From IMG/VR virus record IMGVR_UViG_3300027861_000097, positions 1 to 35,459 of that record: a stretch of DNA of 35,459 bases; one strand, given 5' to 3'. The notes under the pieces were generated by a model. The model saw nothing but the letters and a program-made list of their open reading frames with translations. It was not told where the DNA came from and ran no database searches. Position numbers and translations under genes: made by a program. Each line of letters begins with the position of its first letter. The stretch's first letter is position 1. This stretch comes from a virus. This document shows, piece by piece, positions 1,591 through 31,664 of the stretch.

Positions 1591-3390
1591 CTATCTTAAT
1601 TCTCTAACATCAAATGTACGAATACCATCAACGTTGATTGTTCCGTAGAAACGGTTATTAACCATTTTCTTAGCGTAACGAGTCATGATACCTTTAACAG
1701 GTACGAAGTTGAACGGGTTATACATTGTAGGTGTCAATTGTAATGGAACGTAAGGTGCGTAAATGTACCCAGTATCCAATAATGATTGACCTTTATGTCC
1801 AAGTAACACAGTGTTAGCTGGAGCGTATGGGTCTCTGTATACAGTATATCTACCTGATAAAGAACCTACTCTCTCAATACCCATGTTATAGTTATCTTGT
1901 TCTGGAGAAGCGTTAGATACGTGGAAGTACTCTAAGTCATCAAAAATAGCTGATACCTCAGAAGAAACCACGATAAAGTTAGCCCCACCTCTTAAAGTAG
2001 ACTTATGGATTTGTGCTGAAATTTGGTTGATTGCCGTAATCAAAGTCTGGTTCCAATCTTTTTGAGTGTAAGCAGCTTGACCAGAAGGTAATCTCTTCCA
2101 TCCGTCATAATCCCATCTTAATGTCCAAGCCGCACCTGTTCTTAAGTCTCTTAAGATTTCACGGTCAATTTCCGCCGCAACTTGTTCTGATAATAATGCT
2201 GTCAATTCAGCTTCAGCATCAATGTTATGGAATGCTGATACATCTTGTGCTAACTCAGGAGTCCAAGTAGCTCTTAGTTTTCTTTCTGTTACAGAAACCG
2301 TTACAGATTCTAATTCGAAAGAAACTTCTCCCATTTGAGATTCAAGTTCTAAGTTTGCGTACTGTCTGAAAGTAACCGCGAAGTTAGTTCCACCTAAGTC
2401 AGTTGAAGCAACACCAGGAACGATAGCAGTTGTTCCAGAAGCAGCTCCGATGTAACCATCTAAAGTACCACCTTCACATGTTGCACATACTGGGTGAGTT
2501 AAATCAGCTTCTAAGAAGATACATCCATCAGCGTCACAGATATCACCGTAATCAACGATACCTCTTCCGTATTTTTGAGTAACAACTCTAACTGGTACTT
2601 GGTCACCAGAAGTAAAGATAGTTTCACCATCTTTATCAACGATAGGACCATCAACAGTTACCATTAATGATGCTAAGAATTCTTCAGAATCCATTTCATT
2701 TCCGTTAGGACCAGTTAATCTACCAGCTCCAGAGTCATTGAAGTTACACATTTTAAGGATTTGAGTTCTAACCGAACCATCACCAGCAAATGCAGAAACA
2801 CCATCAGTAAATTCATTACCAGCTTGACCATCAGTACATGCTGTCCAAACAACTGGAGTAGCGTCAGTTACAACAACAGTAATTTTACCTTTTGATTGGT
2901 CAAACATTCCGTCATTGTAGAATCTATCATAAAGATTCTTAGCACATTCAGAATAAGTAGTCTCATCACAACCTGCTGATACACAAGTAGTAACAACTGG
3001 TTCACCGTGTGAAGCAGTACCACCTGATGCTGGCCATCCGTTTTCAAAAATTCTGTCAGATGTTTTAGGTACGAAGTAGAACAATTTACCGATTGGTAAG
3101 TTCATAGCTTGTACAGATACGATATCGTTAGCTAATAATTTAGAAAATACTCTTCTAACGATTGGGAAAACTACAGTTTCGAAAGAACCAGAGTTCCCTG
3201 CGTCAGTTGTTTCCGTAATAAGAGATGATGCTGTGTTCTCATATAACAAAGCGATGTTTTCTCTTGTGTGACCATTAAGTCCTTCTAAGAACCCTAAGTC
3301 ATTCCATTTAGAGACAGTTGCTTCACGAACAGCTTTTTGGTGCTTAAGTCCGATGTTACCAACTTCTCCTGATTTTAATAAATATCCCAT
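1591..3390 (-). CDS. gp23: Major capsid protein, T4 gp23-like
   Basis: A 599-residue HK97-fold major head protein of the T4 gp23 family (T4 gp23 is 521 residues). The family signatures are visible: a segment ending RKLRATWTPELAQDVSAFHN around 370-389 followed by DAEAEL, then IDREILRDLR, GRYTVYRDPYAPANTVLLGH, and a C-terminal block with YAPYVPLQ and GIMTRYAKKMV. The first 60 residues look like the cleaved delta domain: SSLITE|TT at residues 55-62 fits the (L/I)xE consensus of the prohead protease and matches the place of the T4 cut at residue 65. A family-atypical insert (about 130-310) holds all nine cysteines of the protein. It follows the scaffold gene after 27 bases without its own promoter and ends in a strong terminator. 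Confidence 0.96.
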   Translation of the reverse strand: MGYLLKSGEVGNIGLKHQKAVREATVSKWNDLGFLEGLNGHTRENIALLYENTASSLITETTDAGNSGSFETVVFPIVRRVFSKLLANDIVSVQAMNLPIGKLFYFVPKTSDRIFENGWPASGGTASHGEPVVTTCVSAGCDETTYSECAKNLYDRFYNDGMFDQSKGKITVVVTDATPVVWTACTDGQAGNEFTDGVSAFAGDGSVRTQILKMCNFNDSGAGRLTGPNGNEMDSEEFLASLMVTVDGPIVDKDGETIFTSGDQVPVRVVTQKYGRGIVDYGDICDADGCIFLEADLTHPVCATCEGGTLDGYIGAASGTTAIVPGVASTDLGGTNFAVTFRQYANLELESQMGEVSFELESVTVSVTERKLRATWTPELAQDVSAFHNIDAEAELTALLSEQVAAEIDREILRDLRTGAAWTLRWDYDGWKRLPSGQAAYTQKDWNQTLITAINQISAQIHKSTLRGGANFIVVSSEVSAIFDDLEYFHVSNASPEQDNYNMGIERVGSLSGRYTVYRDPYAPANTVLLGHKGQSLLDTGYIYAPYVPLQLTPTMYNPFNFVPVKGIMTRYAKKMVNNRFYGTINVDGIRTFDVRELR

Positions 3391-4789: not shown

Positions 4790-5194
4790 ATGAGAAGTCT
4801 AATTAAAAAAGTACTGAGTGAAACTGGTGTACCACACACTGAAGAACCAAATTATTTGATAAGTAAATTAAAAAATAAGATTGTGGATGATTTGGGTAAG
4901 GTTTACCTAGATGTCACAGGTAACAAACTAGTACTACCACCAATAGATATTAAAATAGATGATACCATAAAAGATGGTAAGATAGCAGGATTTAACCATC
5001 CTAAAAATGGTGAGAATGGTAAAATGGGTATTAAATCTAAAGCTTTAGAGGATGTAGAATACTTAAAGTGGGTTATAACTCACGAACTTATACATGCCGC
5101 AGTTGGTGAAGACTTACCCAAATCAGAAGAACATGAGGGTTTATTTAAAAAATTAGCTGAAAAGATTAATTTACCTAAAGAATATTGGGATTAA
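4790..5194 (+). CDS. Small HExxH zinc metallopeptidase with capsid-targeting-like leader
   Basis: A 134-residue protein with a clear zincin motif THELIHAAVGE: His98, Glu99 and His102, with His115 in SEEHEGLF a likely third metal ligand, as in SprT/minigluzincin-like folds. The N-terminus MRSLIKKVLSE|TG resembles a T4 capsid-targeting sequence with an (L/I)xE cleavage site after residue 11, so it may be packaged in the head and trimmed by the prohead protease. There is no signal peptide or membrane helix. It is the only plus-strand gene within the head operon, has its own late-type element ending 7 bases upstream, and shares a bidirectional terminator with the DUF4494 gene. The substrate is unknown; a host target on DNA entry or a head-assembly role are both possible. 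Confidence 0.85.
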   Translation: MRSLIKKVLSETGVPHTEEPNYLISKLKNKIVDDLGKVYLDVTGNKLVLPPIDIKIDDTIKDGKIAGFNHPKNGENGKMGIKSKALEDVEYLKWVITHELIHAAVGEDLPKSEEHEGLFKKLAEKINLPKEYWD

Positions 5195-5549: not shown

Positions 5550-6071
5550 TTAGTTAAAAAAAGTATTACCACCTGTTGCTCTAGAGAATCTACCTTTAAA
5601 CATGTTATTACTTTTTATTAAACTATCACCATACTCTTTAGCTTTAGGTAAAAACCCCATCACTAGTTTTTTGAGTTCTTCTTCGTATTCAGATTTTGTG
5701 TAAGTAGAAACCATGTTAGATATTAACCTAATTCTTTTTACTAATGATTTAAGGTGTGTGATAAATTTTTTACCACCCTCAATAACATCATCCTCCGTAA
5801 AATCTTTTAAAACGTTTTCAGTGTCTTTAATCACCTCAGACGTAACCTTGTCTAAATCACCAATAATCGAATTAGATAAAGAGAACTTACTATAACCTTT
5901 TTCACTATCTAATAGTGAGTTTGCTATATCCGTTAGTAAATCCATTAAGATTTGGTAGCTACTGGTTAATATACTCATGCTAGCTCCAGCATGTTGACCC
6001 ATGACACTTAAATCATCATAACCACCAGCCTCTTTGAGGAGTTCTTCTTTTATGATTTTACGAATATTCAT
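5550..6071 (-). CDS. Tagged probable internal virion protein (173 aa)
   Basis: A 173-residue, mostly helical protein. It begins MNIRKIIKEELLKE|AGG, a leader that matches the capsid-targeting pattern and ends in an LKE cleavage site after residue 14. The rest (YDDLSVMGQHAGASMSILTS onward) has long amphipathic helices, with a Lys-rich middle section and FKGRFSRATGG near the end. No family was recognised. It follows the 107-residue gene after one base and lies between the prohead protease and the scaffold. That is the place where T4-like phages keep head-core genes, so an internal head protein is the favoured reading. Confidence 0.8.
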   Translation of the reverse strand: MNIRKIIKEELLKEAGGYDDLSVMGQHAGASMSILTSSYQILMDLLTDIANSLLDSEKGYSKFSLSNSIIGDLDKVTSEVIKDTENVLKDFTEDDVIEGGKKFITHLKSLVKRIRLISNMVSTYTKSEYEEELKKLVMGFLPKAKEYGDSLIKSNNMFKGRFSRATGGNTFFN

Positions 6072-6072
6072 A

Positions 6073-6396
6073 TTACTTACCTAGACCAGATTTCTTCAAT
6101 TCTGCTTTAGCCATATTAATCAAATTAGTATCTACACCTAATTCTTCAGCTAAGGCAGCTAACAACATCGCTTTTTCTTTTCTAGTATTTATTTTATTAG
6201 CGAACCTTGGGTATCTGTCCATAAAATACTTTTTCATAGCGTCTAAGAACATCTCAACATCTTTTGGGTTATCCTTCTCTTCTTCACCACCTTCTTCAGA
6301 TGAGTTAGGATCCATTTCTTCTTCTCTAATAATTTTCTTGACTAATAATTCTAAGTCAGATTCGTTTAATTTTACAATTCTTTTTTTCATTTTCAT
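6073..6396 (-). CDS. Tagged small protein next to prohead protease (107 aa)
   Basis: A 107-residue protein with a two-part leader: KKRIVKLNE|SDLELLV followed by KKIIRE|EE, both (L/I)xE-type sites. Next comes an acidic Ser/Gly/Glu linker (about 28-45) and a helical domain (about 48-107) containing FMDRYPRFANKINTRKEKAM. ATG codons at 6396 and 6390 are both in frame (MKMKKR), and the second is equally likely. The LNESDLELLVKKII pattern recurs at the N-termini of otherwise unrelated proteins in this window. It is probably packaged in, or a core element of, the prohead. Family and function are unknown. Confidence 0.78.
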   Translation of the reverse strand: MKMKKRIVKLNESDLELLVKKIIREEEMDPNSSEEGGEEEKDNPKDVEMFLDAMKKYFMDRYPRFANKINTRKEKAMLLAALAEELGVDTNLINMAKAELKKSGLGK

Positions 6397-6507: not shown

Positions 6508-7242
6508 TTATTTTAATAAGAACTTATTTAAACTATCTAACAAATCAGAGTCATTCTCGATTACTAGTTTGGTCTTATTATCTTTTGTTGATTCCATAAA
6601 GGGTTTCAAATCTTTCTCACTCGAAGATATCCAAGAACCTGGTGTTGATGGTGAGGTAACGATGTCCCAACAAATTAACTCGAAATCGTCTTGTACAATA
6701 TTTTTACCATTTTCATTTTTAAGTGAACCGACCCCCCTAGAAGAAATACCAACGGTCCAACCTTTTCTAATCATATTGAGTACCTTATCACCAACAGATG
6801 AGATAATACCCGATTTAAGGTAACCTGGTGTTGTATCTAACTCCATTTTACCCATAAGTGTTCTACCGTTCCACCAAATCTCTGAAATCATATGTGATAC
6901 TCTATCAGCATCAATGATTGAAGATTCTGGGTGATTTAGTTCACCTAAAGAAGTACCCATATCGATGAATTCCTGATATCTTTTCGCCTCTCTTTTAAGT
7001 ATCTCTTCTGGGTATACTCTACCATTTTTATTTTCTACACCCCATTTCTGTAACACGGCATAAATTTCTATTTTATCTGGTAAAGGTCCATCTTGACCTA
7101 AATTTATTCCTGATTTAAATTCTTTAATTAAATTGTGATTCGAACATACCCCATCTTGGCAGGTTAGTTCAGATGATACAAATCCGGAATCATATTCCAC
7201 TAAATATCCATATCCTTCTTCACCTGGTTTTAATATTTTCAT
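6508..7242 (-). CDS. gp21: Prohead core protease, T4 gp21-like (peptidase family S80)
   Basis: A 244-residue serine protease that matures the prohead by cutting scaffold, capsid and internal proteins at (L/I)xE sites. Family landmarks are visible: NKNGRVYPEEIL (72-82), GELNHPE with the catalytic His104, and GISSRGVGSL with the catalytic Ser at 167 or 168. Length is close to T4 gp21 (212). The gene lies upstream of the scaffold and capsid genes as in T4, with three small genes between it and the scaffold. It has a late element at 7258-7266 and a terminator directly after its stop. A CQDGVC pair near residue 28 is unusual for the family. It is the expected processor of the many (L/I)xE leaders found in this window. 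Confidence 0.95.
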   Translation of the reverse strand: MKILKPGEEGYGYLVEYDSGFVSSELTCQDGVCSNHNLIKEFKSGINLGQDGPLPDKIEIYAVLQKWGVENKNGRVYPEEILKREAKRYQEFIDMGTSLGELNHPESSIIDADRVSHMISEIWWNGRTLMGKMELDTTPGYLKSGIISSVGDKVLNMIRKGWTVGISSRGVGSLKNENGKNIVQDDFELICWDIVTSPSTPGSWISSSEKDLKPFMESTKDNKTKLVIENDSDLLDSLNKFLLK

Positions 7243-7257
7243 ATTTATATTTTTTCT

Positions 7258-7266
7258 ATAAATATG
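7258..7266 (-). promoter_or_regulatory. Putative phage late promoter element (prohead protease)
   Basis: Coding-strand CATATTTAT, 15 bases before the protease ATG and just past the terminator of the upstream 145-aa gene. Confidence 0.6.
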
Positions 7267-9635: not shown

Positions 9636-11528
9636 TTAGGTTAATATATCTTTTTCATCGAAATTTTCTTCATTTAATAACACATCTATACCAGATGTCA
9701 TCATTATAATGTCCTCGTTTTTCTTTTTACCCTCTAATAAAAGTTTATCTATAACATTTTCATCACCCTTAAAACCTTCACCGAAGTCACCACTAGTATC
9801 ATCTCCACCGAAACCTCCTGTGTCACCACCGAAACCTCCTGTGTCACCACCGAAACCTCCTGTGTCACCACCGAAACCTCCTGTGTCACCACTAGTATCA
9901 TCTCCACCGAAACCTCCTGTATCTTCAGAATCGTTAGTATCATCACCCATTTTCTGACTCATTATATCCCCATATAATTTATCTACCTTGTCGAAGTAAC
10001 CAGTTTTAGTTATAACTTCGGAAGTTTTTTCTAACTCAGCAGACGCTGCTTTCTCTAGTCTTTGTTGTTCTAAGTCTAATTTAATCTCATCTTCAGACCA
10101 ATTAAATATGTTCTTCTTAGCCCATGTATGTGAGGTTGGTGCTATCCCATCAGTTGCCGCAACTAAATCCTTATAAAGTAATACCTTTTCTTTCCACTGT
10201 TCAACCTTCAACATCTCACCTTGAGTTGATGGGTTGTTGAGGGATAATTTAAAATTACTAAGTTCTTCATGAAAACCTAACATATATAAGTGTACAATAG
10301 CTATTTTATTTAATTCTTGTATCATAGCTTGTTGTATTCTATTGATAGTCCTAGCAAACCTAATATCCATCAACGCTAAATTCTTACCTTCTCCAGTGGG
10401 TTCCTCAAAACCTAGAAAAGTTTTAGGTACTCTAAGTGCTGTAACCATTTTTCTTTGAATAAATTGTATATCAGCTATTTGATCCAAATTAGTAGCCCCA
10501 GGTAAAGTTTCTATTGGACTTGGTGAGTTAGGGTCTCTGACTGGAACAAAGTAATCTTGGTCTACAGCCAAGGTGTTATATCTAACATCTAACTGACCAG
10601 TGTTGTTATCAGCTGTTTGTGTCCTTTTAAATTTATTAGCCACTTTCTGTACATAAGATTCTACATCCTCATCATCTATGTTACCAACATAAACCTTAAA
10701 AACCCTCCTTTCTGGTGCTCTCGTCACACGATACACCAACATAGCATCCTCAGCTAAAAGTAACTGTCTCCAAGTTCTTCTAACTTTATCTAATACAGAA
10801 GTACCATATGGTAATTTTCTATCATCACCTAATAATCTAAAGTGAGCTACTTCCCACGCATTAAAACTAAGGTTTTTAGATTTCCACTCAAATTTAACTT
10901 CTTTTTTTGAATCTTCGTTGGTTGTGGAGTTTGTTTCATTATAATCAAAGTTATTGGAATCACTCCTACTTATCTCTATGTTGGTTAGTTGTGTTGCTCC
11001 TATAACACCATATTTATAATTTAATTTTAAGTGTACAAAGTTGTCACCATATTTACAGGTGTTCCTAGTCCACATAGGTAGATTAGAATGGATATCTAAA
11101 ACATTAAAGAACAAATCCTCTAAAACTTTTTTAATTCTAGAAGAATCTGAATAAATAGACATTATTTGTCCTTGTTCATTTAAAGTACAACTTTCTTCCG
11201 CCATAGTTTCAAGAGCTACAGCTATTTCTGGTGTAAACTCCATAGCTTCATAATCCATATAAGAAGCTAACCTAGTAGTTTCATAGTAAGTAGCCTTTTG
11301 ATACATGTCATTCTCAATTTTCTGCCATTGAGAATCTAAGTATTTCTGTTGTTGTAACTGTAATTTTGTTTTTTCAAAGTCCTCCTTAGACTTACTAACG
11401 ATTAGGTCCTTGTCACCCAAACTATATTTTGGATTTAAGTTTGTATCACTCCTCATCGTTCCACCACCTTGTCCGAAAACGGTGAATAACTTTTGGTATA
11501 TTGTTAGATTATCTTTCTTATCTGCCAT
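9636..11528 (-). CDS. gp20: Portal protein, T4 gp20-like, with repetitive C-terminal tail
   Basis: A 630-residue portal vertex protein (T4 gp20 is 524). Family landmarks are EFTPEIAVALETMAEE near residue 97, AWEVAHFRL...LPYGTSVLDKVRRTWRQLLLAEDAMLVYRVTRAPERRVFKVYVG in broken blocks around 220-280, and a later clip/stem region with GEGKNLALMDIRFARTINRI. Twelve copies form the DNA-packaging and tail-attachment ring. The C-terminal extension is unusual: residues about 535-581 contain tandem GGFGGDT units separated by DDTSGD, followed by an acidic segment. The late element at 11562-11570 lies 33 bases upstream. The order terminase, 82-aa protein, portal lacks the tail sheath and tube genes found between 17 and 20 in T4. 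Confidence 0.93.
   Translation of the reverse strand: MADKKDNLTIYQKLFTVFGQGGGTMRSDTNLNPKYSLGDKDLIVSKSKEDFEKTKLQLQQQKYLDSQWQKIENDMYQKATYYETTRLASYMDYEAMEFTPEIAVALETMAEESCTLNEQGQIMSIYSDSSRIKKVLEDLFFNVLDIHSNLPMWTRNTCKYGDNFVHLKLNYKYGVIGATQLTNIEISRSDSNNFDYNETNSTTNEDSKKEVKFEWKSKNLSFNAWEVAHFRLLGDDRKLPYGTSVLDKVRRTWRQLLLAEDAMLVYRVTRAPERRVFKVYVGNIDDEDVESYVQKVANKFKRTQTADNNTGQLDVRYNTLAVDQDYFVPVRDPNSPSPIETLPGATNLDQIADIQFIQRKMVTALRVPKTFLGFEEPTGEGKNLALMDIRFARTINRIQQAMIQELNKIAIVHLYMLGFHEELSNFKLSLNNPSTQGEMLKVEQWKEKVLLYKDLVAATDGIAPTSHTWAKKNIFNWSEDEIKLDLEQQRLEKAASAELEKTSEVITKTGYFDKVDKLYGDIMSQKMGDDTNDSEDTGGFGGDDTSGDTGGFGGDTGGFGGDTGGFGGDTGGFGGDDTSGDFGEGFKGDENVIDKLLLEGKKKNEDIIMMTSGIDVLLNEENFDEKDILT
9787..9921. repeat. 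Tandem 21-bp coding repeats in portal gene
   Basis: Four adjacent 21-bp units begin at 9805, 9826, 9847 and 9868, and a fifth follows at 9904 after a 15-bp spacer. A CACTAGTATCATCTCCACC block flanks both ends. They encode GGFGGDT heptads. The near-identity at DNA level suggests recent expansion and possible length variation. Confidence 0.9.
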
Positions 11529-11561: not shown

Positions 11562-11570
11562 ATAAATATG
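11562..11570 (-). promoter_or_regulatory. Putative phage late promoter element (portal)
   Basis: Coding-strand CATATTTAT, 33 bases before the portal ATG, in the gap after the 82-aa gene. Confidence 0.6.
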
Positions 11571-16541: not shown

Positions 16542-18505
16542 TATTCAAACTCTACTTCATCTTCAGCTTTTGGACCTGGTTCCTCACCTGGTGTAATTGA
16601 TGGTGGTGGTGTAAATGGTCTTCTTGAAGGTCTCTCACTTGGAGACTTTCTTTCTGGTTTACCAGGTTTTGTATCTGGTTGACTTGGTCTTTTATCTGGA
16701 GTTCTTTGTGGTGCTGGACTCATTTCTATATCTTCTACCATATCTATCTCTAATTCTTGTTTTTCTTTTTTAGTTAAATCTTCTCCAAAAATTTCGATAA
16801 AATCTTCGACACTGTCAACAGGTTCACCTGAAAAGTTATTACCTTTCATTTCACCAACTTCAATATCACCTACAGAGTTAATTCTAGAAACAAGAACTTT
16901 TTTACCATCACCATTAATGATATCTAAATAAATTACACTTTCTTCTGGGTCTTCAGATGTTGCCTTTTTTCTTAATTCAACACCCATCCCATATCTTTTA
17001 ACAACAGTTTCAACGTCCTCATAAGCTTTTTCTTGTTCGTAAGTTTCCATTTGGTCGTTTAAGTGGTCTTCAGTCATATAATCACCTTCTTCCATAAACT
17101 CAGTGTCATAAGGTAATTTATGTTTTGACCATTTTTCAACAGGGTCCAAGTCATAACCTGGTGCTGATTGTTTGTGGTAATGTTTTGATATATCTTTTTC
17201 AGCTTGTTTATAAGCCGTTTTATATGGTGACCTACTATACTTTTTAGCCACACTAATTTTAGGACCGTAAAGGGCTTCCATTTCTTCTGGACCCATTTCG
17301 TCTTCCTCAATATCCAATAATAATTTATCTTCAACATTCTTATCTTCAGGTTTAGCAACTTTATCATCTTCGTCACCACCTAATTCAGTATCTTCTTCTT
17401 TATCTTCTGATTCATAAGCTCTGGTTAACCCACCGTTGTATCTATTGGCTCCACTAACATCTATATTAGTATCCTCATCCATGTAAGAATCATAATCATC
17501 ATACTCACTATCTGATTCAGTTGGTTCCCAATTATATTGACTCATACCATCAAATTCGTCATCCATGTAGTTGTCATAACTTTCTTCCATTTCCATTTCT
17601 TCAGATGGAACTTCTTCTTCTTCAGAATTATCACCGTTGTCCTCAGAAGTTTTAACAGTTTTGATAATATCTTTTTTGTCTTCTGAATCCATAGTATCTA
17701 AATCTAAAGCTGACAATACAGATTTAGCAACCCACTTCTGCATATCAGATGAAATATCCTCAATATCTCTAAGTTGTTGACCTAATTTACCAGTTGTACT
17801 TTGTATGTCTCTTATCTCATCTTCAGTATCATCAAATTCCTCGCCCTCTTCAAAATCAAAAGATTCTTCTTCAGATGGTTCTTCTTCAGATTCAAAATCA
17901 AAAGATTCTTCTTCAGATGGTTCTTCTTCAGATTCAAAATCAAAAGATTCTTCTTCAGATGGTTCTTCTTCAGATTCAAAATCAAAAGATTCTTCACCAC
18001 CTTCAGTTTCCCCTTCTTCAGATTCAAAATCGAAAGATTCTTCCTCAGTATTTTCGACATCATCACCGAAATCAAACTCATCCTCAGCTTTGGGTTCTTC
18101 TATTTTAGGTTCTTGTTTTTTAGATTTCTTTTTATCTAATTTTAGAACATATTTTTTTTCGTTTAAAGAATCAGATTCTAAAATGTTAACATTACTAACA
18201 TCGAAATGATTATTAATTTCTTCAAACATTAAATTTAGATGTTTTGCCGCTTCACTAAAAGACTTAAAATTGTTTTTAGCTTTATTAGCAACACCACCTA
18301 TATAATCAAAATCAGATTCTTTTAAATCTTTAGTGGTTTTTGTTTCTTTGATGTAATATTTTTTATTTTCTCTAATGATAGCGTAAGTATTACCATTAAC
18401 CGATTCTTTAATCAAATCAAAAGAGGATAAAACATCACTTTCTTTTGTTGGATTAATATTAGATAAATCTAACATCTTATTTAAAGTACTTTTTTTCATT
18501 TTCAT
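16541..18505 (-). CDS. Very acidic, repeat-bearing probable virion core protein (654 aa)
   Basis: A 654-residue protein dominated by Glu, Asp and Ser. A short basic N-terminal domain (about 1-115, including LIKE|S near residue 30) is followed by acidic linkers. The SFDFESEEEPSEEE repeat lies at about 171-219, then come long Asp/Glu/Tyr stretches, a small folded part around 500-590 (VVKRYGMGVELRKKA...VIYLDII), and a Pro/Arg-rich tail (about 600-645). ATG codons at 18505 and 18499 (MKMKKS) are both possible. Acidic composition resembles scaffold or core proteins, but a dedicated scaffold already precedes the capsid gene. It could be a second core protein or DNA-mimic cargo. Confidence 0.78.
   Translation of the reverse strand: MKMKKSTLNKMLDLSNINPTKESDVLSSFDLIKESVNGNTYAIIRENKKYYIKETKTTKDLKESDFDYIGGVANKAKNNFKSFSEAAKHLNLMFEEINNHFDVSNVNILESDSLNEKKYVLKLDKKKSKKQEPKIEEPKAEDEFDFGDDVENTEEESFDFESEEGETEGGEESFDFESEEEPSEEESFDFESEEEPSEEESFDFESEEEPSEEESFDFEEGEEFDDTEDEIRDIQSTTGKLGQQLRDIEDISSDMQKWVAKSVLSALDLDTMDSEDKKDIIKTVKTSEDNGDNSEEEEVPSEEMEMEESYDNYMDDEFDGMSQYNWEPTESDSEYDDYDSYMDEDTNIDVSGANRYNGGLTRAYESEDKEEDTELGGDEDDKVAKPEDKNVEDKLLLDIEEDEMGPEEMEALYGPKISVAKKYSRSPYKTAYKQAEKDISKHYHKQSAPGYDLDPVEKWSKHKLPYDTEFMEEGDYMTEDHLNDQMETYEQEKAYEDVETVVKRYGMGVELRKKATSEDPEESVIYLDIINGDGKKVLVSRINSVGDIEVGEMKGNNFSGEPVDSVEDFIEIFGEDLTKKEKQELEIDMVEDIEMSPAPQRTPDKRPSQPDTKPGKPERKSPSERPSRRPFTPPPSITPGEEPGPKAEDEVEFE
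17851..17995. repeat. Tandem 42-bp coding repeats in acidic gene
   Basis: Units start at 17851, 17893 and 17935 (three full 42-bp copies), and a partial copy starts at 17977. They encode 14-residue acidic repeats. The copies are nearly identical in DNA, so expansion is recent. Confidence 0.9.
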
Positions 18506-18855: not shown

Positions 18856-20730
18856 TTATGTGTTAGGTTCGAATTTATTAAGTTCTTCATTGTATACGTA
18901 AGAATTGGAAGGTATAACACCTGACTTCAAATGATGATAACACTCACCCAAAAGGTTTGAGACAGCTGAACTACTAAAATTATTAAGTGGGTATAAAATA
19001 TGGAATTCATCAATTATTTCATAATCATCCCCAACCCAGATACTACCATCATCTTTTTTTTCTGTTTCAAAAAAATCTTGTCTTAGAATAGTGGGGGTAC
19101 GGCTACCATCCTGATCATTAAACACCACAAAATCAACTCTTTCCCATGAATCAGTTTCTTTAACGTCCTTTACCCAATCAAAATCTTTTGTTTCGTCAAG
19201 AAAGGAAGATGGTAATAAATGTTTTTTAAATTTATCGACTTTAGATAACATTAAATATAAGATACCACCTGGTAATATAGAAGCTACAGTAAACCCAACC
19301 AACTTAAGTATATCTTTGAGTTGTTCGGTTACCTTGTCTTTTTCTTCTTTAGATAAGTTTTCACCACTTTTTATTGAGTTTACTAAAATTTTATAAGCTT
19401 CTTTAGTTTCACCACCTTCTTGTTTTACTTTAGAAAGAAAATTATTGAATTTTTTTTTTAATTCACCCTTACTCATATTTTTTTTACTAAATAATTCTAA
19501 TAATTTACCCTTTTTGATTCTGTGTTCAACATAAGCTGTTGAAAAATCAGTTAGACGTTGATTTAATGTACTAGAAACTAACTTTGGGTATTCATTCTCC
19601 AGCCAGTTAATTAAATCTTCCTTATAACCAAAATTTGGTATCTCCAATATTTCTAAGTTATCGTAGTCACCCATATCTCCCGAATAATCAATGGGTAATT
19701 CATTAGAAATACCCTCCCAATAAGGGGTTGCGTAAAAAACAAAATCAGCTATGGTAGGTGATGACCAAAGAATCGATCCACTATGACCGTCCATTGAATA
19801 TTTCCAATCACCATATTTTAATTCTCTTGGGATCGAATTAAAATAATCCATAACAATGTCAAAATGAGCCTGATACTTAGTTATAGGATATTTTTTTATA
19901 GGTGTTTTAGGTGTAATATCCCTTATCCAACTCAAAGAATCGTCTAACATTGACTCTATCAAGGTATTTAATTTAGTCGATTCTAGTGTTACTGAATTAT
20001 CATAGGCCACAGTTTTAATATCATACAACCTATCTAACATACCATTACGTCTTAAAACTTTAAAAACAATATTTTCAACAGAAAACTCACCACCAGTCTC
20101 TAGACCAGACTGACGCATTTTTTTTATTTTTTCAGTTAATTTATCAACACGTTTAATTGTGACCTCATTATCTACCTCATCCATTTCATCATAAATCTCT
20201 TCCACCCTATCCATTAAACGGTTAGATTTTTCTTTCACAGATTTGTCATTAAATGATATTTTTTGTTTTTTGGGTTTAGTCACCCACTCATCTTTTAATA
20301 TGGAATAAACACCAGTAGAGTGATGTGGTTCGTTTATATCTTGTACATACAATTCCACATCATAACCATAAATGGTAACGTCATGTTCTTTATTCCAATT
20401 AGAACTTTTAGATTTAAGAAAGTCCTGTACCAACTCCTCATCTACTGGAATATCATCATAATCCACCACAATATGTAAATCAACATCAGAGTACTTAGAC
20501 CAATTATAATTAGCCAAAGAACCAGTCATGGTTACGTCCTCAATATCAACTTTAGGTAATTCCAAAGACTCAAAATAATCGTCAGCAATCTTTAACAAAG
20601 TTTTTCTAACGTCAGATTTCATTTTTTGATCTTCATCCCATATTTTAGGATTAAGTTCATCCTGCACTTTAAAACCAGATAAATCTATAGATCTATCAGA
20701 TTTTTCAATTTCTTTCTCATTTACCACCAT
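18856..20730 (-). CDS. Nucleotidyltransferase-fold protein with LETM1-like membrane hairpin
   Basis: A protein of about 624 residues. The N-terminal part has a pol-beta-type nucleotidyltransferase signature: TGSLANYNWSKYSDVDLHIV with Gly70-Ser71 and Asp82/Asp84, and a third acidic position in YDVELYVQD (Glu126). The substrate is unknown. The C-terminal part has a charged helical region, then a hydrophobic stretch with SILPGGILYLMLSK ending LPSSF (about 506-510), reminiscent of the LETM1 family membrane segment. The final part begins FDWVKDV, a motif shared with the divergent neighbour. I chose ATG 20730 because the ATG at 20736 overlaps the late element; the 20745 start would be GTG. A membrane-linked NTase in a virion operon is odd. 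Confidence 0.82.
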   Translation of the reverse strand: MVVNEKEIEKSDRSIDLSGFKVQDELNPKIWDEDQKMKSDVRKTLLKIADDYFESLELPKVDIEDVTMTGSLANYNWSKYSDVDLHIVVDYDDIPVDEELVQDFLKSKSSNWNKEHDVTIYGYDVELYVQDINEPHHSTGVYSILKDEWVTKPKKQKISFNDKSVKEKSNRLMDRVEEIYDEMDEVDNEVTIKRVDKLTEKIKKMRQSGLETGGEFSVENIVFKVLRRNGMLDRLYDIKTVAYDNSVTLESTKLNTLIESMLDDSLSWIRDITPKTPIKKYPITKYQAHFDIVMDYFNSIPRELKYGDWKYSMDGHSGSILWSSPTIADFVFYATPYWEGISNELPIDYSGDMGDYDNLEILEIPNFGYKEDLINWLENEYPKLVSSTLNQRLTDFSTAYVEHRIKKGKLLELFSKKNMSKGELKKKFNNFLSKVKQEGGETKEAYKILVNSIKSGENLSKEEKDKVTEQLKDILKLVGFTVASILPGGILYLMLSKVDKFKKHLLPSSFLDETKDFDWVKDVKETDSWERVDFVVFNDQDGSRTPTILRQDFFETEKKDDGSIWVGDDYEIIDEFHILYPLNNFSSSAVSNLLGECYHHLKSGVIPSNSYVYNEELNKFEPNT

Positions 20731-20734
20731 ATTC

Positions 20735-20743
20735 ATAAATATC
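20735..20743 (-). promoter_or_regulatory. Putative late promoter element, left half of a divergent pair
   Basis: Coding-strand GATATTTAT, ending four bases before the preferred ATG at 20730. Its core is an exact inverted repeat of the plus-strand element at 20747. Confidence 0.55.
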
Positions 20744-20746
20744 ACA

Positions 20747-20762: not shown

Positions 20763-21308
20763 ATGAGAAATACTATTAAGAAAATATTAAAAGAAAATGA
20801 TTTTGATTGGACTAAAGATGTTGAACCTATTAGTGTAGAACAAATAGAGGATAAGATTGATGTTATAACTGACTATGGGGCCAGCAATTGGTTTTTAAAT
20901 CATATCGCCACAAAAGTACATGGATTAGGTTTATTAAATAAAGAACTGAACCTATTGACCGATATAATAAAACAAGTGGCAGAAACCTCACAAGAAAACG
21001 GTAAACAATTGGGTTGGGAAGAAGGTCATAGAGAAGGTCATAGAGAGGGTTTTACAGAAGGAGAGAAAGATTGTGAAGATAACATCAATCATCTTCTACA
21101 AAACGCTCAGGATGAAGGTTACGATGAAGGTTACGCTGATGGACTTAAACAAGGAGAAGAAGAAGGTAAAGACCAAGCCGAAAAAGAATTTAATGAAATA
21201 AAGGAAATTGTATATAATAAAGGTTTCGAAGAGGGAAGAATGTATGAGGCTGGTTTAGATTCCGAAGAATATGAAAGAAGACAAAGTGGGTTAGACTTTG
21301 AATATTAA
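20763..21308 (+). CDS. Tagged coiled-coil protein with FliH-like glycine repeats (181 aa)
   Basis: A 181-residue protein starting MRNTIKKILKE|NDFDWTKDV. It has a capsid-targeting-like leader with an LKE site at residue 11, followed by a DFDWxKDV motif also found in the neighbouring nucleotidyltransferase gene. Residues about 78-170 form a long charged helix with glycines spaced every four residues (EEGHREGHREGFTEGE, DEGYDEGYADGLKQGEEEG). This resembles the GxxxG repeats of FliH/type III secretion stator proteins, which pack helices closely. No membrane segment. It is co-transcribed with the next tagged gene from a plus-strand late element. A role as an elongated internal or tail-associated protein is inferred. 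Confidence 0.8.
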   Translation: MRNTIKKILKENDFDWTKDVEPISVEQIEDKIDVITDYGASNWFLNHIATKVHGLGLLNKELNLLTDIIKQVAETSQENGKQLGWEEGHREGHREGFTEGEKDCEDNINHLLQNAQDEGYDEGYADGLKQGEEEGKDQAEKEFNEIKEIVYNKGFEEGRMYEAGLDSEEYERRQSGLDFEY

Positions 21309-21320
21309 AATTAATTAAAA

Positions 21321-21650
21321 ATGAAAAAAATTATAAGATTAACTGAATCACAAATGAGTAAACTAACTGAGGTTAGGATAAATGAAGTAACCGCGGCTGA
21401 AGTAGCTAAAGTATTAGAAGCAATACCTTGTACAGGTCAAAGTGTTAAGTCTTTAATAAGTAAACGTTTAAATGAATATGGTTTCAAAGATGTTACAGTT
21501 AAGTTTTTAAATTATGGTGAAAATAATAAGTTGTTGAATTATATAGCTTACACTGAAGGACCTATTTTTATTATAGAATCTATTAGTAATTCTAAAGTAT
21601 CACCACCTTGTATGGAAGTTCTTAGTGTTATACCTTATCTCAGAACTTAA
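21321..21650 (+). CDS. Tagged small unknown protein (109 aa)
   Basis: A 109-residue protein starting MKKIIRLTE|SQMSKLTE|VRINE|V. These are the clearest stacked (L/I)xE sites in the window, on an N-terminus of the widespread phage form KKxIRLTESxM. The mature part has a helix (AAEVAKVLEAIP), a beta segment with VTVKFLNYGE, and two cysteines. No family was recognised. It follows the glycine-repeat gene by 12 bases, in the same operon, and its stop overlaps the 3' end of the convergent KTSC gene by four bases. No terminator is seen between them. Confidence 0.78.
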   Translation: MKKIIRLTESQMSKLTEVRINEVTAAEVAKVLEAIPCTGQSVKSLISKRLNEYGFKDVTVKFLNYGENNKLLNYIAYTEGPIFIIESISNSKVSPPCMEVLSVIPYLRT

Positions 21651-24788: not shown

Positions 24789-24989
24789 TTAGTTATTTTT
24801 TCTATACTCCAAATACCAAAATAAAGAACCTATAAAACCACCATAAGCGGCTACAGCTACAGCAATCTTTAAATAGGTGGTATCTAAATAACCATTATAC
24901 CACCAAAATGGGTATAATATACACATAACTAACATAAATAAAATTTGTAGTACATGTATAGAGTGTTTTTTAATTCTTTTCCAATTCAT
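24789..24989 (-). CDS. Small two-helix membrane protein (66 aa)
   Basis: A 66-residue protein with a basic N-terminus (MNWKRIKKHSIHV) and two hydrophobic segments, VLQILFMLVMCILYPFWW (about 13-30) and IAVAVAAYGGFIGSLFWYL (about 42-60), ending in a basic tail. It is likely an inner-membrane hairpin. It follows the DHH-sigma gene after three bases, so the two are co-transcribed. A role as an anti-sigma-like membrane partner is conceivable from that linkage but there is no sequence support; a holin-like or toxin-like small membrane protein is equally possible. Confidence 0.72.
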   Translation of the reverse strand: MNWKRIKKHSIHVLQILFMLVMCILYPFWWYNGYLDTTYLKIAVAVAAYGGFIGSLFWYLEYRKNN

Positions 24990-24992
24990 AAC

Positions 24993-26915
24993 TTAATTTT
25001 TTTGTTTTTTTATCATATCCCTAATTTTAGATTTAGCTTTCATTAGATTGGTTTTAGAGGTGTTAATTGACACACCTAACCTCTCAGCTATTTCTTTATG
25101 TGATAAACCAGATAAATAATAAAGTTCTAACGTTTTTTTGTAAGCTGGTGTTAGTTTAGGGATAAAACCTATTATTTTTTTTATGTCATCCTCTTTTTTA
25201 GAATCGTCTTCTAAGGGTTGTTCATATTTAGAGAAATTAAAATCATCTATTGTATTATCAGTAGTCACATTTTTACTTTTCCTCAGTGAGTCTAAAATAT
25301 TATTACTAATAACCCTTCTAACCCAACCTTCAAGATTACCTTTACCATCGTATTTATTTAAGTTTTTATAAACCTTCATAAAACCATCTTGACAAAAATC
25401 TTCCGCTTTATCAACATTATTTGTATATTTCATACAAACTTGCTTTAACATTTTATCCCATAAACTATGGTAAACATCTTTAAATTCTAAAACTTCTTTT
25501 AATAAAGATTTTTTAGTCACATAATTTTCTTTTAACCCATCGTTTGTAATTCTATCCTTCAATAATCTCACAAATTCTTCTTGGAAATTTTTTAAGAATT
25601 CTTTACCATCCTTCCCAAAATAAGTTAATCCAGAAATATTAGTTATACACTTATGACCCCCACTATTAGCCTTTATCATATCCCAACCAGTAACAGATAA
25701 CAATTTTAATGCTTTTATTTCTCTCTCGGATAGAGAATCGTATGGTTTGGACATTACCTTTTTTATAGCTTCCACCCACCTTTCTGTTGTATATTCTTCC
25801 GAAGAACCTTTTGGTGGTTCCCCTAAACCTATAACACCCTCATCTGAGTCCTCAAACATCGCCACCATATCATTATAATTAAATCCAACTGACTCCTCAT
25901 TGAAGTGTTTACTTTTTTCAGCAAAATATTTAACACTATCTATCGTTATCTTCTTCTCTTTTAAACTAGTTTTAAAGACTTCTAAGACCTCTTCAGCTAT
26001 TTCACCTAAGTTTACACCTTTAAGTTCTCTATTCTTCTTAAACGGATTACAAGAAGCTTGTAACAAACCCATAGGCCAAACTATAACTAAAAAGTTTGCG
26101 TTTGGGTATAGTTTGAAGGGTACGTACCTATCGTAAGACCCTGGTTTAAATAAAGCTCCACCACCATATTGTGATATTATACCAAACTCCTCATCGTACT
26201 TTACTTTATCACTTTCACTCTGTGATTTAATATAGTTTTTTAGATTAACTTTCATAACTTCTGGTGATACATAACCATCTTCCTTAGCCATTTTAACAAT
26301 ATTTAAATAAATATTTTTAATACTAGGTGTAGAATTCATAACCAAAGACTCCAAAAACTTAGGTTTATTTTTATAGGCCAAAAGTAATTTATTTGTTACT
26401 AATGACATAGCCATTTTATTTTTAAGTAAATCATTTTCTTTATCATACTTAAAAATATAATTCATCAGTTCCTCTGGTTTAATATCTAGTTTAGCGAAAT
26501 CAGCACTATCAACAGTAGAAATCATTTTAATATCGTCAGAAGGGAATATGTCTTTAGGTGATACAACCTGTGAAATGGTCTCAACATTTGAACGAGCTTG
26601 TCTAAAAGATTTAGAAGCTCCCTTTTCAGCACCAACTTGTTTGTCATGGTGGTCGGTATGTATGATGAACATTGGTTTACCATGTGCGAAGTCAACCAAA
26701 ACAGGCATTACATCACCTCTAGCAGACGGTTTCTTAACAGCAAACTCTCTATCACCATATTGGATAACCTCTGAATCAACAACTTCTATACCATTACTTT
26801 TCAGATATTCCTTCATGGCTAGAGCTGTAGTAACACCATCTAAGTCTTGATGAAAGTATATTTTAGCTTTATTATATCTTTTAGATAAATCTTTTATATT
26901 TCTAATACCACCCAT
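24993..26915 (-). CDS. DHH/DHHA1 phosphoesterase fused to an ECF-like sigma factor
   Basis: One uninterrupted 640-residue frame with two parts. The N-terminal DHH phosphoesterase has HQDLDG (Asp24, Asp26), Asp75, the DHH triad Asp88-His89-His90, and Asp136. A DHHA1-like SGGHKC follows at 419-421, further away than in compact NrnA-type enzymes, leaving a long insert. Residues about 478-640 are an ECF-like sigma: region 2 with KAEDFCQDGFMKVYKNL and GWVRRVISNNILDSLRKSK, region 4 with KKTLELYYLSGLSHKEIAE and LGVSINTSKTNLMKAKSK. DHH enzymes degrade nucleotide messengers or short oligonucleotides; sigma redirects RNA polymerase. The fusion suggests transcription tied to nucleotide signals. It has a late-type element at 26949. 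No stop or frameshift separates the halves. Confidence 0.93.
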   Translation of the reverse strand: MGGIRNIKDLSKRYNKAKIYFHQDLDGVTTALAMKEYLKSNGIEVVDSEVIQYGDREFAVKKPSARGDVMPVLVDFAHGKPMFIIHTDHHDKQVGAEKGASKSFRQARSNVETISQVVSPKDIFPSDDIKMISTVDSADFAKLDIKPEELMNYIFKYDKENDLLKNKMAMSLVTNKLLLAYKNKPKFLESLVMNSTPSIKNIYLNIVKMAKEDGYVSPEVMKVNLKNYIKSQSESDKVKYDEEFGIISQYGGGALFKPGSYDRYVPFKLYPNANFLVIVWPMGLLQASCNPFKKNRELKGVNLGEIAEEVLEVFKTSLKEKKITIDSVKYFAEKSKHFNEESVGFNYNDMVAMFEDSDEGVIGLGEPPKGSSEEYTTERWVEAIKKVMSKPYDSLSEREIKALKLLSVTGWDMIKANSGGHKCITNISGLTYFGKDGKEFLKNFQEEFVRLLKDRITNDGLKENYVTKKSLLKEVLEFKDVYHSLWDKMLKQVCMKYTNNVDKAEDFCQDGFMKVYKNLNKYDGKGNLEGWVRRVISNNILDSLRKSKNVTTDNTIDDFNFSKYEQPLEDDSKKEDDIKKIIGFIPKLTPAYKKTLELYYLSGLSHKEIAERLGVSINTSKTNLMKAKSKIRDMIKKQKN

Positions 26916-26948
26916 AAGTTGTGAATTTTTTAGTTATTAAACTTTATT

Positions 26949-26957
26949 ATAAATATG
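26949..26957 (-). promoter_or_regulatory. Putative phage late promoter element (DHH-sigma gene)
   Basis: Coding-strand CATATTTAT, 33 bases before the ATG at 26915. If the encoded sigma reads this element, the gene would be self-activating. Confidence 0.55.
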
Positions 26958-30046: not shown

Positions 30047-30055
30047 ATAAATATC
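30047..30055 (-). promoter_or_regulatory. Putative phage late promoter element (tail-fibre operon)
   Basis: Coding-strand GATATTTAT, 15 bases before the ATG at 30031. Confidence 0.6.
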
Positions 30056-30074: not shown

Positions 30075-31643
30075 TTAGTAACTTATTTTACCTAGGTAAC
30101 ATTCACCACCTTCGTCATCATCTTCAGTGTTAAAGTCACCCTCAAAAATAATACGAGCCATATCACCTGTTGGATTTACTAAAATACCATTCGAAATCCA
30201 ATCATCCTTGTCAAAGTAAAAACCATCAGCCTTCATCATTTCATTTATATCCTTAAAATGACCATGTTCATTGATGAAATAATCTACAGGACCATACATA
30301 TCTATTTCAGACTCTATTTTGTCTGCTTCATCATCGACATAATCTGTTTTACATTCTTCAATTAACTGGTCGAATTCGCCTTCTTTTTCATCTCTCTGTA
30401 TCTCTAAATCATTTATTTGGTCATTCAATTCTTCTATCTCTTCTTCAGTTTCTGCGTATTGTCTTTGTTCTGACTCAAGGTCATCTATATCACTATCTAA
30501 ATCTTCGATTTCAGATCGTAGATTATCATAGTCTAAAACCCTATCTTGTTTCATACATACTTCACGTTCATCAAAGTTATCTAACATATATTCAGCTTCG
30601 TTCTCTGCGTAACCCCTTGAATCATTCATTGTTATATAACTTCCTAAACTACTTGGTTCCATTATCTGAAATATCTCACTTTCATCCATCATTCCGTAAT
30701 AGTCTGTTATAGACTCTACTAAATCATCTTCATCACCAACAGCATAGTACTGATTATTATTTTCATCTAAATAAATTCTTAATTTGTACCATAAATCATT
30801 TTCGACTGGGATGATATTACTGTGACCAAGTAAATTTTCTAAAGCCTGTGCTCGATAATCATCATCAATCCATTCAGTACCGCCGGGACGTGTTGGATAA
30901 TTATCCATGTGATATTGATTAAGCTTATCCACCATTCTTTTGGGTAATCTTTCGAACCATGCCTCACCTCTTTCTTGTTTACTAAACTCTAAATCCTCGG
31001 CGTCCCAAAACTCCCATTTATTGTCCTTTAACATTCTGTAAGCGACTTTATAAAGTGGGTCTTTTTGATTTTTATTTTTATCTATCACATAAAAAAAGGT
31101 AGATCTTTTATTGTAGCTTTTCCAATGAGTGTCAGTTTGTTTTGAAGCCACACACCACTTTGTCCCAGCACCGTAATAACAAGAAGACTCCCAAGATTTG
31201 GGTGAAATAACTAACCAATCATCATCCTTGTAAATTACTTCTGCCTGTTTTTTAGCTTTTTTTACTTTTTCCTTCTCTTTTTTGGCTTCCTTTTCTTTTT
31301 TTTCAGCCTCTGTAACAGTATTTTTTAAATCTAAATATGTTTTATAACTATTGATGTCTTTATTTTCTAACCTTTGTATGAGTCTATGAAAATTCTTCAC
31401 AGTTGACGTTAGACTTTCCCTATTTGGTGCTACTGTGTAAGCTAGCTTAACGTTCCCTATAGGAGTCAACCAATTTTTTACCATCCACTCCAAATATTTG
31501 TTGTTACCAGATGGGTCGTTATCGGATAAATATTTTATCTCTTCCACATCCTCCCCATCTTTAGCATATTTTTTAATGGTGTTTTCTAATCTACCCTCCA
31601 TTAAAAGTTTACCTAATAATTCCTGTTTTATTATATTTTTCAT
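30075..31643 (-). CDS. Tagged GxGTKWC-domain protein (522 aa)
   Basis: A 522-residue protein with an N-terminal tag (KQELLGKLLME|GR) carrying an (L/I)xE-type site after residue 16, then DPSGNNKYLEWMVK (about 43-56). A Lys/Glu coiled-coil (about 112-133) precedes a central domain with SCYYGAGTKWCVASKQTD (about 154-171) and FYVIDKNKN. An acidic C-terminal half holds another heptad-like region (DSDIDDLESEQRQYAETEEE). The GxGTKWC domain is known to me only as a recurring phage domain of unknown role; two cysteines and a Trp are its invariant feature here. The leader suggests packaging in the capsid. A late element lies 12 bases upstream. Confidence 0.82.
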   Translation of the reverse strand: MKNIIKQELLGKLLMEGRLENTIKKYAKDGEDVEEIKYLSDNDPSGNNKYLEWMVKNWLTPIGNVKLAYTVAPNRESLTSTVKNFHRLIQRLENKDINSYKTYLDLKNTVTEAEKKEKEAKKEKEKVKKAKKQAEVIYKDDDWLVISPKSWESSCYYGAGTKWCVASKQTDTHWKSYNKRSTFFYVIDKNKNQKDPLYKVAYRMLKDNKWEFWDAEDLEFSKQERGEAWFERLPKRMVDKLNQYHMDNYPTRPGGTEWIDDDYRAQALENLLGHSNIIPVENDLWYKLRIYLDENNNQYYAVGDEDDLVESITDYYGMMDESEIFQIMEPSSLGSYITMNDSRGYAENEAEYMLDNFDEREVCMKQDRVLDYDNLRSEIEDLDSDIDDLESEQRQYAETEEEIEELNDQINDLEIQRDEKEGEFDQLIEECKTDYVDDEADKIESEIDMYGPVDYFINEHGHFKDINEMMKADGFYFDKDDWISNGILVNPTGDMARIIFEGDFNTEDDDEGGECYLGKISY

Positions 31644-31655
31644 AACTCTATAACA

Positions 31656-31664
31656 ATAAATATG
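31656..31664 (-). promoter_or_regulatory. Putative phage late promoter element
   Basis: Coding-strand CATATTTAT, 12 bases before the ATG at 31643, overlapping the gap after the 375-aa gene. Confidence 0.6.

Follow-up and report, generated by a model that had tools for sequence, protein, structure and literature searches.

A recurrent phage gene fusion joining a DHH-type phosphoesterase to an ECF sigma factor, likened to processed head cargo of T4-like phages

In this work, we have analysed a gene of the window (the whole 35,459-nucleotide stretch of viral DNA under study) whose product joins a DHH/DHHA1-type N-terminal part to a C-terminal part with the regions of an ECF sigma factor (Table 1). 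The original prediction had described it as one open frame of 640 residues, which was borne out; the gene lies on the minus strand, a point that had been left unstated. Our results show that the fusion is found at full length in 18 further viral contigs (L002–L019), with 66–96% identity, so that an assembly join as its origin is ruled out. No described protein joining the two domains was known to the original prediction, and none was found in the literature searched. Whether or not the packaging that we propose below holds, the fusion recurs among phages, and we found no earlier account of it. The window also bears a T4-type head module, with genes for the major capsid protein, a gp21-type prohead protease, the portal and the large terminase. 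Directly downstream of the fusion (24,789–24,989) lies the gene of a small hydrophobic protein of 66 amino acids, a close relative of which also follows the sigma-less DHH gene of L020.

Table 1. Features of the fusion gene, of the head genes and of the candidate cargo genes in the window
Feature	Positions	Strand	Remarks
DHH–ECF sigma fusion ORF	24993..26915	-	640 aa, open frame; full-length relatives L002–L019
DHH/DHHA1 phosphoesterase part, residues 1–460	25536..26915	-	Motif conservation and predicted structure/fold matches
DHH catalytic residues in the fusion			D24, D26, D75, D88-H89-H90, D136, G419-G420-H421
Linker, residues 461–474 (LKENYVTKKSLLKE)	25494..25535	-	L-K-E at 461–463 and 472–474; putative prohead-protease sites, putative decayed sigma tag
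Predicted ECF sigma factor, regions 2 and 4, residues 477–640	24996..25487	-	Curated profile matches
Promoter-like element before the fusion gene, CATATTTATA	26948..26957	-	ATATTTAT copy at 26949-26956
gp21-type prohead (head maturation) protease	6508..7242	-	phrog_207, E 2.8e-42; proposed processing enzyme
Major capsid protein	1591..3390	-	phrog_138, E 7e-66
Tagged cargo candidate MRSLIKKVLSE	4790..5194	+	SprT-like, below cut-off
Tagged cargo candidate MNIRKIIKEELLKE	5550..6071	-	
Tagged cargo candidate MKMKKRIVKLNESDLELLVKKIIRE	6073..6396	-	
Tagged cargo candidate MRNTIKKILKE	20763..21308	+	
Tagged cargo candidate MKKIIRLTE	21321..21650	+	
Tagged cargo candidate MKNIIKQELLGKLLME	30075..31643	-	

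By its motifs and its predicted fold, the N-terminal part of the protein is a DHH/DHHA1-type phosphoesterase. The catalytic residues named in the original prediction are correct, and they are conserved in a family alignment of 41 rows, where D75, D88, H89, H90, D136 and G419-G420-H421 are invariant and D24 and D26 reach at least 90% conservation. The Pfam model for DHH (PF01368) matches the window protein weakly and below its cut-off (E 0.003, 18.2 bits against 28.1; the recJ model gives E 0.006), whereas the structure predicted for residues 1–460 (mean pLDDT 81, pTM 0.81) matches the DHH domain of PF0399 (Z 13.4), PggH (Z 13.3), RecJ-Cdc45 (Z 12.5), PAP phosphatase (Z 11.8), RecJ (Z about 11) and the NrnA class (Z 8.6–9.4). 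In this model the catalytic loop with D88–H90 is poorly defined, residues 77–117 having a pLDDT below 50. Catalytic motifs and predicted fold are shared with PggH, NrnA, GdpP, RecJ and PAP phosphatase, but identity to these enzymes is about 10–15% and the DHH half of the window protein, with 460 residues, has a middle region specific to its family. A search of PDB sequences with the family profile gave no DHH match, and no cellular homologue of the family was confirmed in the genome collection with the two strict patterns used. It is possible that the enzyme acts against a nucleotide messenger; for the DHH enzymes of jumbo phages, a role against a defence messenger or nanoRNA has been proposed by Iyer and colleagues (PMC7824862).

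The C-terminal part is predicted to be a complete ECF sigma factor, in agreement with the original prediction. It contains regions 2 and 4 and no other sigma region, and the curated models are matched well above their cut-offs (PF04542, 55.7 bits against 24; PF08281, 50.0 against 25.7; the sigma70-ECF model TIGR02937, 102.6 against 42.9). Besides the general ECF model, the best matches are Bacteroidota-type ECF families, each below its own cut-off, and a group of large phages whose head module is similar has been predicted to infect Bacteroidota (PMC9723584). We infer that the window probably comes from a Bacteroidota phage. Relatives of the sigma half had to be collected with an alignment as the query, since the window sequence as sole query gave only near copies. 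With PADLOC, the sole match was a weak one between sigma region 4 and a CARF model.

The comparison with these relatives shows that the DHH part, the sigma factor and their partner domains are exchangeable modules. DHH and sigma are adjacent genes in L022, they overlap at ATGA (a 4-base overlap) in L027, and in L024, a contig of 210 kb, the sigma factor is a free gene distant from the DHH gene. L020 and L028 keep the DHH part with no adjoining sigma factor, and the L028 gene ends inside the linker. The tree built from the DHH part shows fused and split members in alternation, the fused label requiring six changes, at least three of which are forced by well-supported branches. In a distant clade (L056–L058, L070, L071, L073, L074, L076–L079), the C-terminus of the DHH protein is joined not to a sigma factor but to a TseH-like type VI effector domain (PF25218, E 5.6e-8 in L070), and members with and without this domain interleave on the tree. 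In other phages (loci L167, L170–L175, L177–L179, L182 and L183), a sigma factor of the same ECF family forms the C-terminal part of a fusion with a tagged, unrelated protein of some 150 residues (GIFDPTGLVDIGNAISYW...), and the junction again bears [LI]xE. The idea that enzyme and sigma factor are coupled in a single chain does not sit well with these data, as the halves are also separate (L022, L027 and the L024 contig) and swap partners, which makes an obligate coupling unlikely. An internal start that could provide a free sigma factor is not conserved in the linker, the position being GTG, GTA, ATG, ATA, TTT or ATC.

From which promoter is the fusion expressed? The sequence ATATTTAT lies upstream of 12 genes of the window (for example at 7258-7265, 11562-11569, 26949-26956, 30047-30054 and 31656-31663) and of 44 genes of the 210-kb relative, with sense to antisense counts of 12:3 and 44:11 respectively, and it is commonly placed 20–26 bases before the start codon. 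It precedes about one third to one half of the window genes with non-coding upstream DNA and is also present in three related contigs, and it is likely a phage promoter box. The fusion gene and several head genes are among those that it precedes. The element at 30047, singled out in the original prediction, is one of many such sites upstream of genes. The position of the motif before head genes is the sole indication that it is a late promoter, and this function is putative. The T4 late box TATAAATA was considered as an excess motif and rejected (12 sites against a shuffle mean of 7.9, with 10 of 100 shuffles as high, not significant).

The fusion might be a cytoplasmic bifunctional regulator, whose DHH part would detect or remove a nucleotide signal in the infected cell and thereby control the attached sigma factor, which would take the host RNA polymerase to the late genes. 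We consider this rather unlikely. In its favour, both domains look intact in one chain and the window copy has no N-terminal tag; however, the halves are also encoded by separate genes or occur with other partners, and ATATTTAT is also found upstream of the DHH gene in phages in which no copy of the sigma factor was detected, such as the 318-kb contig of L052 (these contigs may be incomplete). The ECF sigma factor is therefore unlikely to be the reader of this motif, and it was rejected in that role. A protein of 250–264 residues with a weak sigma region 2, common to several of these phages, may be a better candidate for the late sigma factor. Thus, while the domain identities and the fusion were correctly recognised in the original prediction, its mechanism leading from a nucleotide signal to a switch to late promoters is unsupported.

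A different role is suggested by the comparison with relatives. In phage T4, gp21 cleaves after L/I-x-E, and the N-terminal propeptides of its cargo, 10–19 residues long, are capsid targeting sequences (PMC9026906). Our analyses showed that, in 33 out of 33 distinct cases, the N-terminal extension of a DHH homologue has [LI]xE as its last residues, right up against a conserved [STG]G[LI]R, and none has [LI]xE at offsets of 1–4 residues; these counts, like those that follow for the sigma proteins, come from related, non-independent sequences, and their significance is overstated. The five distinct members without an extension (the window, L002–L004 and L020) make up the window clade and have a methionine at that very point. 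The window copy starts with MGGIRN and bears no tag, a stop being present six codons upstream with no start codon between. A similar boundary is seen in the sigma proteins, where [LI]xE lies at most 9 residues before the sigma domain in 27 of 28 distinct sequences and abuts it directly in 16, against a background of 13% at randomly chosen positions of these proteins. This is true for the DHH fusions, for the sigma factors behind the unrelated tagged protein, and for the free sigma factors, which carry N-terminal tags such as MEKLIKKILKEELLKE. Two L-K-E motifs stand between the domains of the window copy, and [LI]xE is present in every fusion linker though the neighbouring residues vary. The DHH-fusion linker resembles the tag of a free sigma factor in a decayed state. 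Shuffled linkers contain [LI]xE in 23–66% of cases, however, and the linker motif alone is therefore unconvincing.

The resemblance of the linker to the N-terminus of a free sigma factor would also be expected if the fusion had no function of its own, that is, if neighbouring genes had merged by stop loss or by a frameshift at a 4-base overlap, the linker being a decayed start region and the sigma factor acting in the producing cell. The overlapping gene pair of L027 and the alternation of fused and split states on the tree fit such an origin, but the fusion has been kept in many diverged contigs, and [LI]xE persists in every linker while the adjacent residues change. We regard this explanation as unlikely.

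The same kind of N-terminus is not restricted to the fusion family. Basic N-terminal tags with [LI]xE were found in 10 of the 36 ORFs of the window and in 60 of the 227 ORFs of the 210-kb relative (about a quarter), against 4–5% when the rule was applied to internal stretches and 6–7% on three unrelated stretches (crAss001, SPO1 and the T4 early region); a loose form of the rule matches 12–13% of the ORFs in other phages tested, and the tag counts are thus rough. A stricter form is present in 12–14% of the ORFs in the window and the 210-kb relative and in none of 159 in the crAss001, SPO1 and early T4 stretches, figures that are descriptive and not an independent test, as this rule was composed after the tags had been seen. 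The tags, for instance MKNLIKKILKEE and MNIRRIIREE, are short, basic and amphipathic, and are carried by many unrelated window proteins (4790–33168), which are candidates for a packaged proteome. Almost no function could be assigned to 39 tagged candidates compared with Pfam and PHROGs, and the association between the tag and an upstream ATATTTAT was not significant (p 0.11). That the tags are some other address, such as helices that bind membranes or a signal for import into a replication compartment, is very unlikely. They are indeed short, basic and amphipathic (as in IKKIIKEE), and their link to the virion is one that we infer. However, the exact [LI]xE boundary in all the extended DHH homologues is more readily explained by a protease site than by a helix, the window carries the gene of a gp21-type protease, and the length and position of the tags match those of the T4 propeptides.

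On the basis of the fusion and its spread, the conserved catalytic residues, the protease gene and the positional conservation of [LI]xE, we propose, with rather more confidence than doubt, that the fusion ORF may encode the precursor of a two-part head cargo in a T4-like phage, which would be cut by the protease and ejected, both halves acting in the next host. The DHH enzyme and the sigma factor would be made as a single chain from a promoter class shared with the head genes and built into the prohead, where the gp21-type protease would separate the halves at the L/I-x-E site of the linker, and both would be ejected with the DNA into the next host cell. A sigma factor made late would be of little use in the same infection and useful at the start of the next one, when it would steer the host RNA polymerase to phage promoters. 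The DHH enzyme would hydrolyse a nucleotide messenger or a short oligonucleotide, most plausibly as an immediate counter-defence, and might, as it enters the cell, break down a defence messenger or nanoRNA. More speculatively, the fusion might hold the sigma factor silent until packaging. The chief weakness of the head-cargo proposal is that the window's own clade has no N-terminal tag. Targeting of the window copy would thus have to use the linker tag or partners, and since this copy lacks one feature of T4-type cargo, we liken it to such cargo and do not count it as a proven member. We put forward tentatively, and are slightly more inclined to doubt than to accept, that the virion delivers a sigma factor whose precursor also contains a DHH enzyme degrading a messenger, that the prohead protease would release this sigma factor, and that it would reprogram host RNA polymerase from the start of infection, as one of dozens of packaged tagged proteins in these phages.

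How does this compare with known systems? The T4 proteins Alt, IPI, IPII and IPIII likewise depend on a gp21-type protease and on a short N-terminal extension ending in L/I-x-E (present in the window's homologues); they are late head cargo ejected with the DNA, as we propose for the DHH–sigma protein, Alt acting on the host RNA polymerase and IPI blocking a defence enzyme (PMC9026906). In contrast to the T4 internal proteins, the candidate here combines a sigma factor and a DHH enzyme in one chain and has a putative cut site between them, the packaging is proposed from sequence, and the window copy lacks the N-terminal tag. In phiKZ-like phages, transcription machinery is carried in the head and proteins are processed by a protease after glutamate (PMC5694885), the same as proposed here, but these phages carry a whole multisubunit polymerase and have no sigma factor (PMC7824862). 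According to the excerpted text of PMC4281155, phiEco32 and SU10 have a phage sigma factor of the ECF type, like the sigma half of the window protein, but there it is a free protein that serves the middle and late promoters within one and the same infection, with no processed tag described in that excerpt; for SU10, the same excerpt reports one peptide of it in mass spectrometry data, among the middle gene products. The large Bacteroidota phages that encode bS21 have, as here, a T4-like head module and large genomes, and their authors consider that bS21 is possibly encapsulated and delivered; sigma factors and DHH enzymes are both unmentioned in that paper (PMC9723584).

If packaging is true, the fusion would be a variant of T4-type processed head cargo. 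The transcription machinery that phages are known to bring with them is a polymerase or a modifier of one; a sigma factor that is injected and released by a protease would take over host transcription at once by smaller means, and to our knowledge no such case has been described. The DHH half, arriving with the DNA, would be a candidate for an enzyme of counter-defence. With the L/I-x-E boundary, the proteins that uncultured T4-like phages may inject can be listed as candidates from sequence alone, and the boundary gives direct predictions for mass spectrometry.

Outside the window, some relatives of the DHH gene contain a possible programmed translational bypass (L186:8875-8905, L187:6959-6989 and L189:1503-1533; also L185, L188 and L190), for which T4 gene 60 is a known precedent. 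The order is GAT CTT, a stop TGA within an 8-base gap, and then CTT GAT. The take-off codons match those for landing, the gap is spanned by a predicted hairpin, and the hop would restore the DxD motif. The arrangement is common to three lineages, in which third-codon identity is 0.85–0.90 over the 20 codons before the gap against 0.46–0.56 after it (controls, 0.60 and 0.57). Alternatively, the gene may be broken, or the sequence may be an inverted repeat that is mobile.

Elsewhere in the window, runs of short repeats are present in the C-terminus of the portal protein (9709–9957, DTGGFGGD units) and inside an acidic protein (17,794–18,209, SFDFESEEEPSEE units), and a protein of 629 amino acids (18,856–20,745) matches phrog_36119 and resembles nucleotidyltransferases at its N-terminus, where the Pfam match (E 4e-4) is below the cut-off.
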